A stretch of DNA of 12,425 nucleotides from contig JAADFL010000207.1 in NCBI GenBank assembly GCA_013152945.1, positions 1 through 12,425 of the forward strand. The letters are read 5' to 3'. This stretch comes from Deltaproteobacteria bacterium. Lineage in GTDB: Bacteria > Myxococcota_A > JAADFL01. The stretch's first letter is position 1, and each line of letters begins with the position of its first letter. Under the pieces are notes generated by a model. It saw only the letters and a program-made list of their open reading frames with translations, made no database searches and was not told the DNA's origin. The position numbers and the translations under genes are program-made. Below are positions 4,769 through 12,425 of the stretch, piece by piece.

Positions 4769-5449
4769 TTATGGCGCTGTCGGGTTGGAGAACTTCCAGT
4801 AGAGTGTCTTGTTGTCCCCAAAAATTACCTTGAGTGTCGACGGGACGGTATTCCCCGGGGCTGCACAAGGATCTTGCCCGGCCCTGCTCGAGTAACGTCG
4901 GCCTCGCTTGTGACGGCGTCTCCGCCTGTTTTTTTTCCTGTATTTTTTTTTCATATTTTTTTGGGGGTTGTTTAGAGTGCACTGGATTTTTCTGAAACTG
5001 CCTACAGGTGTTGAAAACGAGTTACCGGGCATCATTGATTTGTTTGTCATGAGTTCATACTTGCCGTTCAGCACGAGCTTGATTCCCTTCCACTTGTAGT
5101 CGCTGCGGTTCTCAATCTTGACATAGTACTGGTCCTCCAGAGTTTGCATCCATGAACCGGCCCAGAGCTGGGGCGACGGCGACCGGTCGGCAAAGATGAA
5201 AGCAAGGACCAGCAATGAAAACCCGATATATGAAACAAGGATGTAGGTCTTGGTTTTTTGGTATGGATTGGCTTTTTGCCAGCTTGAAGAGATACGGGTG
5301 AATAGACCAGGGGATGCTTGAAAAAATTTTTTTGTAGTATTTTTCCACTTGGATGAACCTGCTTGCAATGACTTGCCGGTATTGTCGGCTGCATCCGTTT
5401 TCATCGGGGTCTTATTGGCGTTTCCGGCGTTTGGGTTTTCTTTTTCCAT
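4769..5449 (-). CDS. Unrecognised single-span membrane protein with slippery A-runs
   Basis: I do not recognise this 226-residue protein. Residues 1-67 are polar, Lys/Asn/Ser-rich and probably cytoplasmic. One transmembrane helix (about 69-86, YILVSYIGFSLLVLAFIF) follows, and the C-terminal part should lie outside. That part begins with beta-strand-like sequence containing Trp, Tyr and Asn (VKIENRSDYKWKGIKLVLNG). It is interrupted by a strongly basic stretch (about 165-186, KKKYRKKNRRRRRHKRG) and resumes with LKVIFGDNKTLYWKF. The pattern looks like a small extracytoplasmic beta-sandwich with a basic insertion. The insertion is encoded by A7, A9 and A8 runs that include in-frame A AAA AAT and A AAA AAC heptamers. 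No Shine-Dalgarno sequence precedes the ATG at 5449, and Met16 (ATG at 5404) is no better placed. It is divergent from the outer-membrane barrel gene. Confidence 0.72.
   Translation of the reverse strand: MEKENPNAGNANKTPMKTDAADNTGKSLQAGSSKWKNTTKKFFQASPGLFTRISSSWQKANPYQKTKTYILVSYIGFSLLVLAFIFADRSPSPQLWAGSWMQTLEDQYYVKIENRSDYKWKGIKLVLNGKYELMTNKSMMPGNSFSTPVGSFRKIQCTLNNPQKNMKKKYRKKNRRRRRHKRGRRYSSRAGQDPCAAPGNTVPSTLKVIFGDNKTLYWKFSNPTAP
4929..4967 (-). other. Homopolymer cluster with in-frame slippery heptamers
   Basis: On the plus strand this is T8 (4929-4936), T9 (4943-4951), T7 (4956-4962) and G5 (4963-4967). In the coding strand these become C5, A7, A9 and A8. The zero-frame codons CAA AAA AAT and AAA AAA AAC each contain an X XXY YYZ heptamer (A AAA AAT and A AAA AAC). 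The -1 frame beyond them stays open to a stop at about 4764, only 5 bases past the zero-frame stop. Confidence 0.6.
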
Positions 5450-5535
5450 GGGGTTTCTATTAGACTATTTCTGCCGTCGCATCAATGATATTTCGGGCTC
5501 GGGAAAAACAAGTGGATAGAAATTGGAAAAACCGC

Positions 5536-5565
5536 TTGACACTCCTGGAAGGTGCGGAATATGTT
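5536..5565 (+). promoter_or_regulatory. Sigma70 promoter for the outer-membrane barrel pair
   Basis: A perfect TTGACA at 5536-5541 is followed by 18 bases and TATGTT at 5560-5565 (4 of 6 to TATAAT). The start of transcription would be near 5572, leaving a leader of about 70 bases. The promoter lies inside an upstream in-frame extension of the barrel gene, which supports the internal ATG at 5644 as the true start. Confidence 0.5.
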
Positions 5566-5643: not shown

Positions 5644-7044
5644 ATGAGAGAGAGCCTGGTTGCAACTTGCGTAGCGATAACAGCAGCCCTGTTCTCGGTC
5701 CCTGTTCAAGGTGGGCCTTTTGGGCGTAAAGCTTCACAGGTTGATGTGCCCAAACTGATTATCGAGAGGCCATTGACATTGGGACGGGGTGTGCTTGAGT
5801 TGAGCCTCGGATATTCGAACAGATCCGTAAACAGCGTCTTTGACAGCGGAGGGTCGGTCGAACCTTCCGTAAAGGCGGTCACCATCACGACAAGGGATCT
5901 GCTCAAGGCCGAACCTGAAGAGGTGACGACCAAGTACAACATCCTGGATTTGAGCCTCAACTTCGGGTTGACCAACAATCTTAGCCTGGGTTTCGACATC
6001 CCCTTCTACTTTGTGGGCCAGAACATCGACAACTTCGATGCATTGGTTGCCTCAACAGGCGGGGATGCCCAGGTCAAGGCGTCGTTGAAGGACCAGGAGC
6101 CGACAGCCACCAACATGGGTGACGCCAGGCTGTGGGCCATATACCAGTTCTGGGGTAAAGCTGCTCCCTTGTCGTCCTTTGCCGTGAAGGCAGTGCTGAA
6201 AACAGCCTCGGGCAATGATTCCTTCGGCGAGGTTACTACCGAAACAGCCTTCAACAATGAGAAGGGAGAATGGTATCCCGAAGATGCGACCGATGAACAG
6301 ATCATCAAGGACCGGCGAACAATCTTGACTGGAACCGGTCAAGTGGATTTCGCACTATCATTGCTGTACAAGCAACAGCTCGGGCCGGCTGCAGGGACCG
6401 TGGAAGTCGGTTATAACGCCAGGTTCGAAGATCGGGTCATGTACATGCCGTACCTGTTGGGCAATACGGTAGGATTCACCGGCAAGATCGATCCGGGCGA
6501 TGAAGTGTTCGCGAACGCGAACCTGACATTCCAGCCGATGGAGTACTTTGCGGTTGGCGCCGACTTCAGGTTCTTCTACCGGCAAAAATCACGGGCCGCC
6601 TGGCCGAAGATGTACTATTCATTGCCGGATGAACAGAACCAGACAGACAAGCCGAACGATATTTTTGTCGGAGATACGTACAGGGATGTGCTGGTGCCCG
6701 AGTTTGCAAAGGACCAAAAGGGCGACTACCTGGTGTATCGTAACGGAAAAGAGGCGACACCTGTGGTGGATTCCTGGCACAGCAGCGAGGGTTACTTGTT
6801 TACATTGAGACCCAAGTTGTACTTTTTCATCACAGATCATCTCGACATCACTATTGCCGCTGATTTTCACCTGATGGGAAAGAACATGGGCAATATAACG
6901 AATTATTTGATGGGTGAATCCAGAGGATCAGCTTGGGTGACATCGAACAACCAGGTGATTTATCCGAATGACGCTCTTGGAACAGATATCGGCGGAGGCG
7001 TAATATTCGGCTCCATCACCGGAAAGGCAACGGTCCGCTTCTAA
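5644..7044 (+). CDS. Putative outer-membrane beta-barrel protein
   Basis: A 466-residue exported protein. The chosen ATG follows AAGGGAAGGA (5631-5640) and opens a signal peptide (MRESLVATCVAITAALFSVP, cleavage near VQG). An upstream in-frame ATG at 5485 would bury that signal peptide behind 53 residues. The mature part alternates polar and hydrophobic residues in amphipathic strands rich in Gly and aromatics. Examples are LELSLGYSNRSVNSVF, LSLGFDIPFYFVG, GTVEVGYNARFEDRVMYMPY and FAVGADFRFFYRQ. It ends in Phe (GKATVRF), the usual C-terminal signature for BAM-dependent barrel insertion. NILDLSLNFGLTNNLSLGFDIPF resembles the strand-turn-strand of many uncharacterised barrels. Substrate or function is not visible. 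The next gene begins 61 bases later with no promoter seen between them, so the two probably share a transcript. Confidence 0.85.
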   Translation: MRESLVATCVAITAALFSVPVQGGPFGRKASQVDVPKLIIERPLTLGRGVLELSLGYSNRSVNSVFDSGGSVEPSVKAVTITTRDLLKAEPEEVTTKYNILDLSLNFGLTNNLSLGFDIPFYFVGQNIDNFDALVASTGGDAQVKASLKDQEPTATNMGDARLWAIYQFWGKAAPLSSFAVKAVLKTASGNDSFGEVTTETAFNNEKGEWYPEDATDEQIIKDRRTILTGTGQVDFALSLLYKQQLGPAAGTVEVGYNARFEDRVMYMPYLLGNTVGFTGKIDPGDEVFANANLTFQPMEYFAVGADFRFFYRQKSRAAWPKMYYSLPDEQNQTDKPNDIFVGDTYRDVLVPEFAKDQKGDYLVYRNGKEATPVVDSWHSSEGYLFTLRPKLYFFITDHLDITIAADFHLMGKNMGNITNYLMGESRGSAWVTSNNQVIYPNDALGTDIGGGVIFGSITGKATVRF

Positions 7045-7105: not shown

Positions 7106-10100
7106 ATGAAAGGCAACCTCGCGAAGAACGTAGCTTCGTTCGCTGTTGTTATCGGTTTGATTTTTACCATGGCGAGCGGGACTGCTCTGGCGCAGTATTT
7201 TGAATGGCCCTTTCCTGACAACGAGTGGAGAACGATAGATACCGAGCATTTTAGTATCCACTACGTCAAGGGCAATGAATTCATGGCCAACAAGGTGGCC
7301 AAGTGGGCGGAAATCATCTACCCGCAGGACTGCAAGGTATATGACTACTGGCTCGAGGAGAAGATACATATATTGCTCCGCGACCAGGAGGAGAATGCGA
7401 ATGGTTTCGCCGCGTACAGCGACGATTATGTCACCTTGTGGTCCACCCCGCTCTATTACAGGTTGAGGGGGCGGGGCGACTGGGTGCCTATGGTCTTCTC
7501 CCACGAGTTCGGACATATCGTGTCATTGAAATTGAACGATCCCCTGGCTGAAAATGCTTCAATTATTTTGGCTGCCGGGCTGTACGAAGATGGGATGAGA
7601 AGGATAGATCTGGGCGCCCAGGTAATAGCAGGCCACGGGCAATCACCTATTTGGTGGTACGAAGGTGCGTCCCAGTATGCCTCCCATGAATCGGGTGGGT
7701 ACGACCTCTGGAGCACCAGCCGGGACATGCTAATGAGGATGTCCGTACTCGAGGACAACACGCTGGACTGGAGCGAGATGCAGGTTATCGTTGACAAGCA
7801 CGGTTTCGGCGGGGAGCAGGCGTACAACCATGGTTTTTCATTGGCATTGTACGTCAAGGAGAACTACGGCGCCGAAAAATGGGCCCAAATGGCCAAGAAC
7901 CACAGGGACAAGGGCAGTATTCTCAACTGGAACCAGACCATCAAGCTCTCTCTTGGAATATCGGGTGAACAGCTCTACAGGGAATGGCAGGCCTGGCTCA
8001 AGAAAAAATACGAGGCCCAAGCAGCCAAGGTTCGCAAGGAAGGAGAGGTTACCGGTTCACCGTATGATCAGTTGACAGATCCCAAGGAAGACAACGAGCG
8101 TCTCAAGCGAATGGACAGGAGGGAACGACACAGGTTCAAGATCAAGCAATGGGGCGGAATGTGGAATCAGTTTCTTACCTATTCGCCCAAGGGAACATAT
8201 CATGCCATGGTTTCCCTCAATAACGTGGTGTACGCAAAGCCGATACCAAGGGACAAGCACCCCGCATTTACAGGCAAATACTGGACAAAGAAAGAGCAGG
8301 GCAAGTACATGCTCAAGATGTCTGAAGAAAAGCAAATGGGTATGATACCCAGGGTCAATTGGGACAGTGCATTCTCCTTTTCTCCGGATGAGACCAGGCT
8401 GATAGTCTCGGCTGTGGACGTAGAGCATTGGTACGGTAACTATTATCCCAATGGATACAGATTCAACAACCTGGTTATTTACAGGCTTGGGACCAAGAAT
8501 GTGCGTCAAAAGGCATGGAAGCTTACAAACATGGCGCGCGCTATCAATCCTTCATGGTCGCCCGACGGAAAATCAATCCTGTTCATAAGGGAATGGGATC
8601 AGTCCACTGAATTGATTCGAATGGACTTCCCGGACGATCATCCCGAGAATGTAGCTGAAAATTGCGGGGCATTGGACTTTCACGATGAAAACAGCCTTCA
8701 GAGAATCAAAAACCCGGATGGCACCGTTTCCTGGGAATTAAAGGATAAATGTTACATTGATCATGGTGTATCCATCAAATCAGTGTTCAACCCGGGTAAC
8801 GGCGATCAGATAGGACCGCCGAAATGGTCTCCGGACGGAAGCAAGATAATATTTGCTTTCTACCACGCGAACCATGCCGAGGGAGACGCTCTTTATAACG
8901 AACAGGATCTTTACATCATGAACTCGGATGGAACAGGGCTGCGACCTGTTACCTGGGACAAGGCGGAAGACACGGACATGATATGGGCCGACGGCGGTAA
9001 ATCAATAATCTGGTCCTCTGATAGAACCGGTATCTTCAACATCTATAAAATGAACCTGGAATCCGGAGAGATCAGGCAATTGACAAATGTAATCGGCGGA
9101 GCGTTCTGGCCGGCACTTACTCCTGACGGCGACCTGGAATACTTGAGCTTCAGTTCGTTCGGTTTCAAGCATTACGTACTGCCCAAAGAGAAATTCTTTA
9201 ACAAGAAGATAGAGAACAACTACCATGTCACGGAAGAACTGGTTAAGAAGAAGTTGGTTCCTGAAGATATCCCGGATGTAACCAAGGACAGCAAGCCGTA
9301 CAACACGTTCCTGGCATTGAAACCGGTCTTTGCCATTCCGATGATGATTTACGAGGATCGTGGAATTACGGCAGGCACCGAGGCCTATTTCGCGGATTAC
9401 ACGGATACGCATTTTCTCTATACGCGGGCCTGGCTTGGACAAAATGAGACATATGTCCTGGCCTATTTCAACCAGATGTGGTACCCGGAGTTTTCGATTG
9501 GAGCAGTGCTGGGTTACCGTAATTCTGTTTTCGGATTGAGCCTCCCCGCCACCCGGCCCAATGAGGGCGAGCTGGTGGGCACTACTCCGGTTACAGGAGG
9601 AATCAGGCAGGCCCTCCGGTATATCTACTATTTCGCCGGGGTGAATGTTCCTTTGAACAACAATCTGAAGCTTTCGGCGGAGTACGTTCGCTTGAAATAC
9701 GGAATAAGGTCGTACAGGGAAGGCGGAGGCTATGAACCGTACCTGAATCGAAGCAGCGTTGATTTGTCTTTGAATTTTTATAATATCAGTCCATGGCGCG
9801 GCAATGCGGATGTCAACCCAAGGGGTGGAAGGTACCTCTATATCGGTTATTCCTACATGAACACCGATCTCGATCTGCCTTCGTACAATGGCGGAGAGAT
9901 TATCGGCGGGAATTTGTCCTATGAGTGGCCGGAGAAAGGCTCGAAGCAGACGATAAATGGAACTGAATACGAAGTTGTGGATGATCACGGCACCCTGCGG
10001 ACCCCGGATGGTCAAAAGACAACGTATAAGCGTAACAACGTGACACTGCACAGGAATGCACCGGGTGAACCTGATTATGCTGCTCACATGATAGAATTTT

Positions 10101-10825
10101 CCTACCGGGAACTCTTGGCTACCCCATGGTTCAAGAAGGCCGGGCACACGCTTACGTTGGCCATGCGAGGCGGTTGGGTAAACAGAAATGTCGCATACCT
10201 GGATGAGTTTGCCGCAGGCGGAGTGCATCCCCAGCGCTACAGGATTGATATTCAGCCGAACCAGGAATTCTCGGGTTATCCGGGTTGGAGCATCAGGGGT
10301 GAGACCATGCTCATTTTCTCGGCTGTGTACACGTTCCCGATCTACCGGGATATCGACTATCACTTGGGACCGTTTTATTTCGACAGTGTATTTGCACAAT
10401 TGTTCGGCACGGCAGGGAACTGCTGGGGCTTTAGGGGTAAGTACTACATGGACTCAAGGACAGGAAAGCCCAGGTATGATCCCATTGCAAAGATCGAAGG
10501 TACGAATTTTGTCAGTGGTGGAATTCCATGGGTGATTCCCGGCTCGGTAAGGCGGGAAATTCCCTTTGTGGATTATTCAGAGGAGAATGGAAATTACCTT
10601 CTTTATGACCTGGGCTTCGAACTTCGTATGAAGGCATTTATCGACAATGTAATTCGTTGGAATTCATTCGTTAGGATCGCTTACGGACTTAATGATATTT
10701 TTGGGCGTGGCGGCGACATCAACAATGACAGTATTTACAGCGATCACTATCCCAACGATCCGTTGCATGATGAACAACAGACTAAATCTTTCAGGGTTTT
10801 TGTCGGAATAGGGTCGAACTGGTAA
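7106..10825 (+). CDS. Exported zinc metallopeptidase-like / TolB propeller / outer-membrane barrel fusion
   Basis: A 1239-residue multidomain envelope protein. Residues 1-29 are a signal peptide, cleaved after ALA. Residues ~35-305 look like a peptidase MA / M1-M61-like gluzincin domain. HEFGH (His133, Glu134, His137) supplies the zinc and catalytic residues, and WWYEGASQY supplies the likely third ligand Glu186. A helical tail follows (YNHGFSLALYVKENYGAEKW...LYREWQAWL). The 49-residue gap from His137 to Glu186 is long for the family. Residues ~375-700 contain TolB/WD40-like propeller blades: FSFSPDETRL (~423), NPSWSPDGKS (481), PKWSPDGSKI (~573), IWSSDRTGIFNIY and ALTPDGD (~671). Residues ~733-1239 are amphipathic strands ending in Trp (VFVGIGSNW), consistent with an outer-membrane barrel. 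An attractive reading is a peptidase and propeller held at one face of the outer membrane by their own barrel. Which face is not decidable here, and no substrate is evident. It probably shares a transcript with the upstream barrel gene. Confidence 0.92.
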   Translation: MKGNLAKNVASFAVVIGLIFTMASGTALAQYFEWPFPDNEWRTIDTEHFSIHYVKGNEFMANKVAKWAEIIYPQDCKVYDYWLEEKIHILLRDQEENANGFAAYSDDYVTLWSTPLYYRLRGRGDWVPMVFSHEFGHIVSLKLNDPLAENASIILAAGLYEDGMRRIDLGAQVIAGHGQSPIWWYEGASQYASHESGGYDLWSTSRDMLMRMSVLEDNTLDWSEMQVIVDKHGFGGEQAYNHGFSLALYVKENYGAEKWAQMAKNHRDKGSILNWNQTIKLSLGISGEQLYREWQAWLKKKYEAQAAKVRKEGEVTGSPYDQLTDPKEDNERLKRMDRRERHRFKIKQWGGMWNQFLTYSPKGTYHAMVSLNNVVYAKPIPRDKHPAFTGKYWTKKEQGKYMLKMSEEKQMGMIPRVNWDSAFSFSPDETRLIVSAVDVEHWYGNYYPNGYRFNNLVIYRLGTKNVRQKAWKLTNMARAINPSWSPDGKSILFIREWDQSTELIRMDFPDDHPENVAENCGALDFHDENSLQRIKNPDGTVSWELKDKCYIDHGVSIKSVFNPGNGDQIGPPKWSPDGSKIIFAFYHANHAEGDALYNEQDLYIMNSDGTGLRPVTWDKAEDTDMIWADGGKSIIWSSDRTGIFNIYKMNLESGEIRQLTNVIGGAFWPALTPDGDLEYLSFSSFGFKHYVLPKEKFFNKKIENNYHVTEELVKKKLVPEDIPDVTKDSKPYNTFLALKPVFAIPMMIYEDRGITAGTEAYFADYTDTHFLYTRAWLGQNETYVLAYFNQMWYPEFSIGAVLGYRNSVFGLSLPATRPNEGELVGTTPVTGGIRQALRYIYYFAGVNVPLNNNLKLSAEYVRLKYGIRSYREGGGYEPYLNRSSVDLSLNFYNISPWRGNADVNPRGGRYLYIGYSYMNTDLDLPSYNGGEIIGGNLSYEWPEKGSKQTINGTEYEVVDDHGTLRTPDGQKTTYKRNNVTLHRNAPGEPDYAAHMIEFSYRELLATPWFKKAGHTLTLAMRGGWVNRNVAYLDEFAAGGVHPQRYRIDIQPNQEFSGYPGWSIRGETMLIFSAVYTFPIYRDIDYHLGPFYFDSVFAQLFGTAGNCWGFRGKYYMDSRTGKPRYDPIAKIEGTNFVSGGIPWVIPGSVRREIPFVDYSEENGNYLLYDLGFELRMKAFIDNVIRWNSFVRIAYGLNDIFGRGGDINNDSIYSDHYPNDPLHDEQQTKSFRVFVGIGSNW

Positions 10826-10861: not shown

Positions 10862-10891
10862 TTGACAGCTTGAGGTGTGCATTTCTATACT
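10862..10891 (+). promoter_or_regulatory. Strong sigma70 promoter for the lipoprotein gene
   Basis: A perfect TTGACA at 10862-10867 is followed by an 18-base spacer and TATACT at 10886-10891 (5 of 6 to TATAAT). It is the best consensus match in the window. Transcription would start near 10898, giving a purine-rich leader of about 80 bases. It separates the lipoprotein gene from the upstream barrel pair. Confidence 0.6.
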
Positions 10892-10980: not shown

Positions 10981-12425
10981 ATGAGAAGAACAAGTAAGAT
11001 GAACTGGTTGGCAATGGTTTTAATGGCCTTTGTCGTATCTTTTTGGTTCCAGGCATGTCTGGACGACAACAACAATGGACCGTATAACGGTGACACCGAC
11101 ACAGACACAGACACAGACACAGATACTGAAACCGCCGATGTAGACGTGGATGCAGACACCGACACTGACAGTGACATTGATACGGACACGGACACGGACA
11201 CAGACACTGATACTGATACTGATACTGACTGTAGTGATCCCAACACCTGCCTGAACCAGGGATGCGGCCTTGTATGCAAACCCACGGGCAATGACTGCCC
11301 GGCCGGTTTCCAGTGCTTGGCCTATGCGGGACAGGACACAGGCTTTTGCACCATGGCATGTGACAGAAACGACGACCGTTGCGGTTGTTACTGGCATTGC
11401 GGCCCGGTTGGCGATGGTGCCGGCGGAACCGTGTGGTACTGCTTGCCCGGCGGTGATTTTTGTACCTATGACGGCGCATGCGGGGACACGCAGAAATATG
11501 TGTGCACCTTGTCGGTCGAGGACGAAAACGGAAACGGTAAGGTAGACGGCATAAAAGGCAGGTGCGGCGAGCGCGAAAAGGATGGAGCTGGAACAGGCGA
11601 TGTTTGTACGAACACGGTAAAGTGTTACAACAATCTCTGCTTGGGCGGCAACAATGCCCAGGGGCAGTTTGAAGGAACATGTTATTCTTTCTGCAGGGAT
11701 GCCAACGATTGTCCGCAGGACTTTGATTGCACCACCATCAACATAGGACTTGGCGATACGGCAGAGGTTGCATCTGCTGCTATCGATGTGTGCGTTGCAA
11801 AGGGCACCCCGTGCGAACGTGATGAAGATTGCGCCGACAACAACCAGGTTTGCGGAATCTCCATGTCACTGAGCCCGACCTGCATCGATCCGCCCTGTGA
11901 GAGGGGCAAGGAACACTGCCTGAACCCGGGAGACAAGTGCGGTCAGGGTGGAGACCCATGCTACAACAACTGTTGCCTTGGTTCCGGCAATGACTTTTTG
12001 TGTTATGAATTCTGCAGAGATGGCCATGACGAAGACTGTGATGTCGCAGGCCAGAAATGCAAGGGCCTTCCCACACAGGAAGGAACCATTCATGTTTGTG
12101 TCGCCGCGGGCGAGTCATGCACCAAGGATGAAGATTGCACCAATGACCAGGTATGCGGTATCGGTTCGACACTGGACGCCGAATGCATTGACGAGCAGGG
12201 AACCGATCAGAACAGGGTATATTCTGGCGACGAATGCAACAACAAGGATAAAATTTGTTACAACAAGGTGTGTCTTGGCCAGGGTCAGGGTGATGCTTTC
12301 AAGGGCACTTGCTACGAGTTCTGCGATCCTGACACGGAAAAAGACAACCCAACTTGTCCGCAAGGACAGGCATGCGCTTCAATCAATGTCAACACAGGCA
12401 ATGATGTAACGAAATTGAACGTATG
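10981..12425 (+). CDS. Cysteine-rich lipoprotein with Asp-Thr linker (3' end beyond window)
   Basis: The frame is open for 481 codons to the window edge, so the C terminus is missing. A lipoprotein signal peptide (MRRTSKMNWLAMVLMAFVVS) leads to FQAC, with Cys26 as the probable lipidated residue; Phe at -3 is a slightly unusual lipobox. An acidic linker of alternating Asp and Thr (about residues 38-83) would project the rest from the membrane. About fifty further cysteines follow, roughly a tenth of the residues, suggesting many disulfides in an exported domain. From residue ~207 a unit of about 100-110 residues repeats (starts near 207, 318 and 417). Its pattern is CYNN-CLG, then CY-FCRD, then VCVA-G--C--DEDC----QVCGI and CID. 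An EF-hand or dockerin-like loop, DENGNGKVDGIK, lies at 181-192. Function is unknown; a surface-exposed structural, adhesive or binding role is a guess. Such Asp-Thr lipoproteins are frequent in Myxococcota and relatives. Confidence 0.9.
   Translation, partial: MRRTSKMNWLAMVLMAFVVSFWFQACLDDNNNGPYNGDTDTDTDTDTDTETADVDVDADTDTDSDIDTDTDTDTDTDTDTDTDCSDPNTCLNQGCGLVCKPTGNDCPAGFQCLAYAGQDTGFCTMACDRNDDRCGCYWHCGPVGDGAGGTVWYCLPGGDFCTYDGACGDTQKYVCTLSVEDENGNGKVDGIKGRCGEREKDGAGTGDVCTNTVKCYNNLCLGGNNAQGQFEGTCYSFCRDANDCPQDFDCTTINIGLGDTAEVASAAIDVCVAKGTPCERDEDCADNNQVCGISMSLSPTCIDPPCERGKEHCLNPGDKCGQGGDPCYNNCCLGSGNDFLCYEFCRDGHDEDCDVAGQKCKGLPTQEGTIHVCVAAGESCTKDEDCTNDQVCGIGSTLDAECIDEQGTDQNRVYSGDECNNKDKICYNKVCLGQGQGDAFKGTCYEFCDPDTEKDNPTCPQGQACASINVNTGNDVTKLNV
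11092..11229 (+). repeat. In-frame hexanucleotide (GAY-ACN) repeat encoding the Asp-Thr linker
   Basis: Six-base units encode Asp-Thr pairs. GACACA occurs four times in a row at 11098-11121, GACACG three times at 11185-11196 and at the related GATACG just before, and GATACT three times at 11209-11226. Different synonymous versions are grouped in blocks, as expected from local slippage of each version. An imperfect middle (ETADVDVDADTDTDSDID) separates the blocks. Because units are 6 bp, length change would keep the reading frame. Confidence 0.85.
11599..12425 (+). repeat. Three tandem cysteine-rich protein repeats (~300-330 bp each)
   Basis: Homologous coding units begin near 11599, 11932 and 12229, with spacings of 333 and 297 bases; the third runs off the window. 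Each opens with GD(V/K/E)C, then CYN--CLG, C-Y-FC and later DEDC and QVCGI where present. Nucleotide identity is visibly lower than protein-pattern identity, so these are old duplications that kept their cysteines. Confidence 0.75.

Follow-up and report, generated by a model that had tools for sequence, protein, structure and literature searches.

The window analysed here, a 12,425-nucleotide stretch (contig JAADFL010000207.1) from a deltaproteobacterium placed in Myxococcota_A, contains a gene on the forward strand (7106-10825) whose 1239-residue product joins a zinc-metallopeptidase domain, a TolB-like β-propeller and an Omp85-type outer-membrane β-barrel in one chain. By architecture the protein belongs to the WD40-Omp85 subfamily, to which it adds the metallopeptidase domain, and this long form of the protein travels with one small outer-membrane protein (OMP) gene directly upstream. 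We tentatively favour the view that it is an outer-membrane metallopeptidase and assembly factor of the Omp85 superfamily that serves the upstream OMP. The three-part architecture is well supported; the function we infer. The features of the gene are as follows.

7106-10825, forward: peptidase-propeller-Omp85 barrel protein, long form, 1239 residues (open reading frame, Shine-Dalgarno sequence, start codon, full-length homologues, confident model)
7106-7192, forward: signal peptide, residues 1-29 (lysine residues, hydrophobic core and cleavage between ALA and Q, by inspection)
7193-8065, forward: gluzincin zinc-metallopeptidase domain, residues 30-320 (separate model; matches in the PDB to M30, M1, M9, M60 and M61 peptidases)
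7502-7516, forward: HEFGH, residues 133-137, with predicted zinc ligands H133 and H137 and catalytic E134 (invariant in 53 of 53 homologues and six short-form paralogues)
7661-7663, forward: E186, predicted third zinc ligand, in a WxxEGxxxY motif (invariant; aligned to M9 and M1 sites)
7823-7825, forward: Y240, probable catalytic tyrosine, in YxxG (invariant; aligned to YVKG of an M1 aminopeptidase)
8066-9205, forward: TolB-like β-propeller and linker, about residues 321-700 (PD40, TolB structure match, TIGR02800)
9329-10822, forward: Omp85-type 16-strand β-barrel, residues 742-1239, with no POTRA domain ahead (strand count, BamA/TamA matches, Pfam hits in homologues, profile match)

Three domains in one chain

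The ATG start codon is preceded, about 7 bases upstream, by a GGAGG Shine-Dalgarno sequence, and residues 1-29 form a Sec-type signal peptide by inspection (MKGNLAKNVASFAVVIGLIFTMASGTALA, with Q following the cleavage point), as the preliminary description of this DNA had proposed. That description had also looked to profile searches for all three domains. The propeller was recognised by Pfam PD40 (47 bits, cut-off 20.9), but Peptidase_MA_2 (PF13485) scored 19.7 bits in the window protein, below its cut-off of 32.4 (28.5 bits in the homologue L127), and the Pfam scan of the window protein matched no barrel family. Because single-sequence profiles left only the propeller beyond doubt, the domain calls needed structure prediction and homologues.

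Using a 53-sequence alignment as input, AlphaFold2 modelled residues 40-1239 with a mean predicted local distance difference test score (pLDDT) of 82 and a predicted template modelling score (pTM) of 0.83. Structures were compared by VIA-align and Foldseek. Since propeller and barrel filled the structure-search list of the full-length model and the peptidase domain was barely tested by it, that domain was modelled separately (pLDDT 85, pTM 0.83). The claim that peptidase, propeller and barrel form one chain is borne out by the confident full-protein model together with full-length homologues in the same domain order.

The peptidase domain and its active site

The HEFGH domain, earlier called gluzincin-like, is predicted with confidence to have the gluzincin fold: its top structure matches are all gluzincins or M1-fold proteins. 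VIA-align places lugdulysin (M30), M1 aminopeptidases, LTA4 hydrolase and M9 collagenases at Z scores of 13.4-16.0, and Foldseek, with a best E value of 1.5e-4, also lists M60 and M61 members. The domain shares with the M1/M9/M30 gluzincins the fold, the HExxH motif, the third-ligand Glu in WxxEG and the catalytic Tyr in YxxG; it differs from them in having only about 8-14% identity, and no curated family reached its cut-off.

HEFGH begins at residue 133 and WWYEGASQY at residue 183, so the numbering of E186 stands as earlier given. Seven residues of the active-site region, H133, E134, H137, E186, R211, Y240 and G243, are invariant across 53 of 53 aligned homologues from five phyla, and all seven are also kept in six short-form paralogues. 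In profile alignments, the family motif WxEGxAEY is aligned to WWSEGIAEY of microbial collagenase (M9, E = 7e-4) and, weakly, to WLNEGFTSY of an M1 aminopeptidase (E = 0.7), and Y240-x-x-G243 falls on YVKG of the same aminopeptidase. In M1 enzymes the Glu aligned here serves as third zinc ligand, and the Tyr is catalytic. In the full-protein model E186 lies in the helix next after the HExxH helix, with a strand hairpin between them. The four residues that had been put forward for zinc binding (His133, Glu134, His137 and Glu186) are therefore not only present but invariant, with E186 aligned to the third ligand of M1 and M9 enzymes. The fold, the placement of the helices, the profile alignment and the invariance suggest that H133, H137 and E186 meet at one zinc site, which speaks indirectly against E186 lying far from the histidines. 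Zinc-peptidase activity of the N-terminal domain is strongly indicated.

The propeller and the Omp85 barrel

The blades described earlier as TolB/WD40-like superpose on TolB (3iax) in VIA-align with a Z score of 22.2 and 2.6 Å over 238 residues, spanning TolB residues 164-411. The TolB equivalog profile TIGR02800 gives only 78.9 bits against a cut-off of 343; the propeller is TolB-like, not TolB. TolB itself is a soluble protein with an N-terminal domain of its own; it works with Pal and carries neither peptidase nor barrel.

The C-terminal 500 residues are, as anticipated, an outer-membrane barrel and not a soluble fold. Sixteen strands are counted in the model between residues 742 and 1234, and VIA-align matches this region to the BamA and TamA barrels with Z scores of 19-20 (about 276-313 residues, 3.7-5.0 Å). 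Pfam Omp85 exceeds its cut-off of 24 in L035, the short form of the window's own genome, and in the Bdellovibrionota member L113 (42.8 and 39.4 bits). A profile of the family barrel matches the genome's own Omp85 proteins, its BamA included (P = 2.8e-5), and in the same comparison the unrelated family of the upstream OMP, used as a control, matches neither (P 0.55 and 0.32). The barrel belongs to the Omp85 superfamily, and it is among the most conserved regions of the protein in the homologue comparison.

Between propeller (to about residue 700) and barrel (from residue 742) lie only about 40 residues with two short helices, so no POTRA domain is present. At the position of the Omp85 L6 motif, (V/I)RG(F/Y), the window protein has FSGY (residues 1055-1058; 10268-10279). 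Most Myxococcota members have A or S in place of the Arg (F[A/S]GY), members from other phyla K or R, and the G is invariant; the short-form paralogue of the same genome keeps LRGF. A published survey (Heinz and Lithgow 2014, PMC4104836) defines the superfamily by the barrel and not by the L6 motif and includes subfamilies without POTRA.

A conserved subfamily in five phyla

Peptidase, propeller and barrel follow one another in the same order in homologues from Myxococcota, Bdellovibrionota, Gemmatimonadota, Latescibacterota and Neomarinimicrobiota. The domain order, whose spread the preliminary description had left to a survey, is thus conserved across five phyla, and the recurrence of one order in full-length homologues of several phyla puts the arrangement far beyond chance. 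The protein is not the one-off fusion it might have seemed but a member of a conserved subfamily, of which the same genome encodes a second, short-form copy on another contig (about 970 residues, with HELTH). In the tree the window protein groups with three proteins from Myxococcota metagenome-assembled genomes (MAGs; L075, L083 and L091), at about 40% identity. A scan of genome contigs with the window protein alone as query gave no matches, whereas an alignment query did find homologues; a search of plasmids returned propeller-only matches.

Three homologues (L081, L086 and L111) lie on MAG contigs titled 'Klebsiella pneumoniae' (CAMAXZ010000037, CAMBIK010000004 and CAMAWH010000008). Their proteins nest inside the Myxococcota clade, and the titles are almost certainly mislabelled public records.

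Pairing with an upstream outer-membrane protein

The preliminary description was right about the peptidase-propeller-barrel protein at this locus and missed its upstream partner. Two further features belong to the pair.

5644-7044, forward: small OMP gene, the directly upstream partner (about 466 residues from the ATG at 5644; the longest open reading frame starts at 5485)
5536-5565, forward: promoter-like TTGACA-18-TATGTT before the OMP-protease pair (consensus match of only 10/12)

The ATG at 5644 has a Shine-Dalgarno-like AAGGGAAGG ahead of it. A second promoter-like site lies at 10862, before the next lipoprotein gene. The two sites fit a two-gene unit, though the count of such sites in the region is not above that in shuffles.

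The same OMP family stands just before the long-form gene wherever a Myxococcota-type locus extends far enough upstream, and likewise at the Bdellovibrionota locus L113. The OMP also lies upstream at L121, where the long-form gene is split between two or more frames. We surveyed 282 genomes of the phylum, counting the long form only at E ≤ 2.6e-27; many of the 225 matching genomes hold only a propeller or a short form. The long form occurs in 42 genomes, the OMP in 43 and both in 41, across about ten families (Fisher P ~1e-45, a value that ignores relatedness). In the 41 genomes with both, the two genes are adjacent at 43 of 43 loci, two genomes carrying two pairs each. Of the three exceptions to the pairing, two are plainly truncated at the end of a contig; in G086, the third, 377 bp separate the OMP gene from a contig end, and no long-form start was detected in that interval. 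The pairing suggests a dedicated outer-membrane assembly or quality-control unit.

The N-terminal segment of the OMP that follows its signal peptide was considered as a special docking or cleavage site and rejected: its conservation (0.52 versus 0.44 for the rest) is not exceptional.

Orientation in the membrane

A natural topology marker is found in five of the long-form homologues (L120, L138, L140, L141 and L142): between their propeller and their barrel stands an OmpA-type peptidoglycan-binding domain (Pfam OmpA, 1.7e-21; motif GHTDxxG...NxxLSxxRA). Because peptidoglycan is periplasmic and the OmpA domain lies between propeller and barrel, the propeller and the peptidase should face the periplasm and not the cell surface. 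In PlpD, too, the enzyme domain has been shown to stay periplasmic (PMC11116518). On the strength of the insert and of this precedent, the soluble part very probably faces the periplasm.

A proposed mechanism and its alternatives

In the reading we favour, the 16-strand barrel would be seated in the outer membrane, with the propeller and, beyond it, the gluzincin peptidase hanging in the periplasm where the POTRA domains hang in BamA. The propeller may bind envelope clients and hand them on to the peptidase and the barrel; the favoured client, or partner in a complex, would be the small OMP of the gene just upstream. The unit would aid the assembly or maturation of this OMP, and perhaps of co-encoded lipoproteins, and remove failed copies, in the way that LptD of E. 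coli is served by the β-barrel assembly machinery (BAM) and by the peptidase BepA, which works on LptD at the BAM complex (PMC8423444). That the OMP is the client, and that the role is one of assembly or quality control, we infer only. A narrower version, in which the single chain joins an Omp85 insertase to a propeller that binds clients and a peptidase for quality control, all devoted to one OMP client, as a minimal BAM-plus-BepA unit apart from the cell's own BAM, seems to us doubtful.

Several observations weigh against an assembly factor serving the OMP. The POTRA domain is missing. The L6 arginine is lost in the clade, and BamA-like insertase activity is therefore in doubt and may be absent. 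Loci of Gemmatimonadota, Latescibacterota and Neomarinimicrobiota, and those of the short form, are without the upstream OMP, which means that in some members the core function must be independent of it. Gene linkage points to a shared task and does not prove that the OMP is a substrate, and the literature search found no experiment on any family member.

The main rival is a structural one: the protein may form a stable two-barrel complex with the small OMP, as a transporter or surface platform, while the peptidase acts on another substrate or trims the complex once. The strict one-to-one pairing and adjacency agree with such a complex, as does the loss of the L6 arginine, and a complex of several envelope proteins is suggested by the further conserved lipoprotein genes that follow at many Myxococcota loci. 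The catalytic residues, however, are invariant over deep divergence, which suggests continuing catalysis, and we consider the complex possible but less likely than an assembly factor serving the OMP.

The barrel could instead be a secretion or processing port, exporting or displaying neighbour proteins (lipoproteins, M6 or S8 peptidases) that the gluzincin domain would process in the periplasm. Lipoproteins do lie beside the Myxococcota loci, among them the lipobox protein at 10981-12423 (forward strand); a subtilase adjoins L075, and a PorV gene and an M6 peptidase with a sorting-tail match accompany the Latescibacterota homologues. Yet the downstream genes vary by clade while the upstream OMP is constant within the long form, and the characterised Omp85 exporters (TpsB) use POTRA domains, of which the window protein has none; we regard such a port as unlikely.

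The invariant active site and the TolB-like propeller would also suit a general periplasmic protease for which the barrel is an inert anchor and the propeller a substrate sensor, as the preliminary description implied. This is quite improbable to us, as the barrel is conserved beyond the needs of an anchor and the obligate OMP partner is left unexplained. A surface-displayed protease whose N-terminal domains pass out through the barrel, as once proposed for PlpD and as raised for other enzyme-Omp85 fusions in the Omp85 survey (PMC4104836), is very improbable because the OmpA insert of the five homologues must be periplasmic and PlpD itself proved to be so (PMC11116518).

Relation to known systems

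A literature search for the domain combination returned only the Omp85 survey (PMC4104836) and side matches. As presented in the survey's main text, where the word 'peptidase' is absent, WD40-Omp85 proteins have a C-terminal Omp85 barrel, an N-terminal TolB-like propeller and no POTRA domain; they are treated as propeller plus barrel and called reminiscent of a BamA-BamB fusion. The window protein differs from them, as published there, in its N-terminal gluzincin domain, and the long form in its obligate upstream OMP. Because the architecture matches this subfamily, the peptidase domain is an addition to a known kind and not a new kind, and the protease-propeller-Omp85 form is undescribed but not unprecedented.

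PlpD and other patatin-Omp85 proteins likewise carry an enzyme domain and an Omp85 barrel in one chain, with the enzyme of PlpD in the periplasm. There the enzyme is a patatin lipase and POTRA is present; here a zinc peptidase and a propeller are found without POTRA. Insertion or export of other proteins is the role ascribed to the Omp85 proteins that have been characterised by experiment, PlpD being a reported exception (PMC11116518). BepA at BAM offers a functional analogy only: it too is a periplasmic zinc metallopeptidase (M48) that works on an OMP while this is being assembled at an Omp85 barrel (PMC8423444), but in E. coli these are separate polypeptides and BepA combines M48 with TPR, unlike the M1/M9-like domain with a propeller seen here. 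What emerges is a widespread POTRA-less Omp85 branch with a conserved metallopeptidase site and a strictly linked OMP gene, a compact system in which to study whether an outer-membrane assembly factor can have a protease built in, and a function-bearing domain is added to a subfamily known only as 'WD40-Omp85'. The strict pairing identifies the partner and so opens the question to direct test.

The window protein has a true HExxH gluzincin fold, whereas PF00149 we take to be the calcineurin-like phosphoesterase fold. It is PF00149 that is meant by the 'metalloprotease' of the 'Metallo' Omp85 subfamily, which resembles the window protein in placing a metal-enzyme domain on an Omp85 barrel (PMC4104836).

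Neighbouring genes and other features of the window

Many Myxococcota loci (for example L087:13508-17619, L109 and L076) go on downstream with another two conserved genes, whose products mostly begin like lipoproteins. The first encodes about 500 residues with ACG/GCG..DVKxAGVGLNPDEIGP; the second encodes a lipoprotein-like product of about 750-880 residues in which a TIG domain occurs together with CxDGxDNDxDGxxDxxDPxC repeats. In the window another gene takes this downstream place, that for the Cys-rich lipobox protein at 10981-12423, which runs off the window. Its Thr-Asp runs stem from GACACN hexamer repeats (11092-11123 and 11155-11229) and could vary in length. The downstream lipoproteins were rejected as obligate partners, since they differ in the window and its closest relatives.

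Unlike in Myxococcota, the homologues L124-L139 (Latescibacterota, Gemmatimonadota and Neomarinimicrobiota) are preceded by a PorV-like gene and by a gene for an M6-like peptidase, the latter with a weak match to a type IX secretion system sorting tail. Within the window, a 226-residue open reading frame on the reverse strand (4772-5449) shows, by inspection, what looks like a membrane helix and a stretch rich in Lys/Arg, and matched no Pfam family. Tandem repeats of 59 bases and shorter occupy positions 248-386, near the left end of the window.

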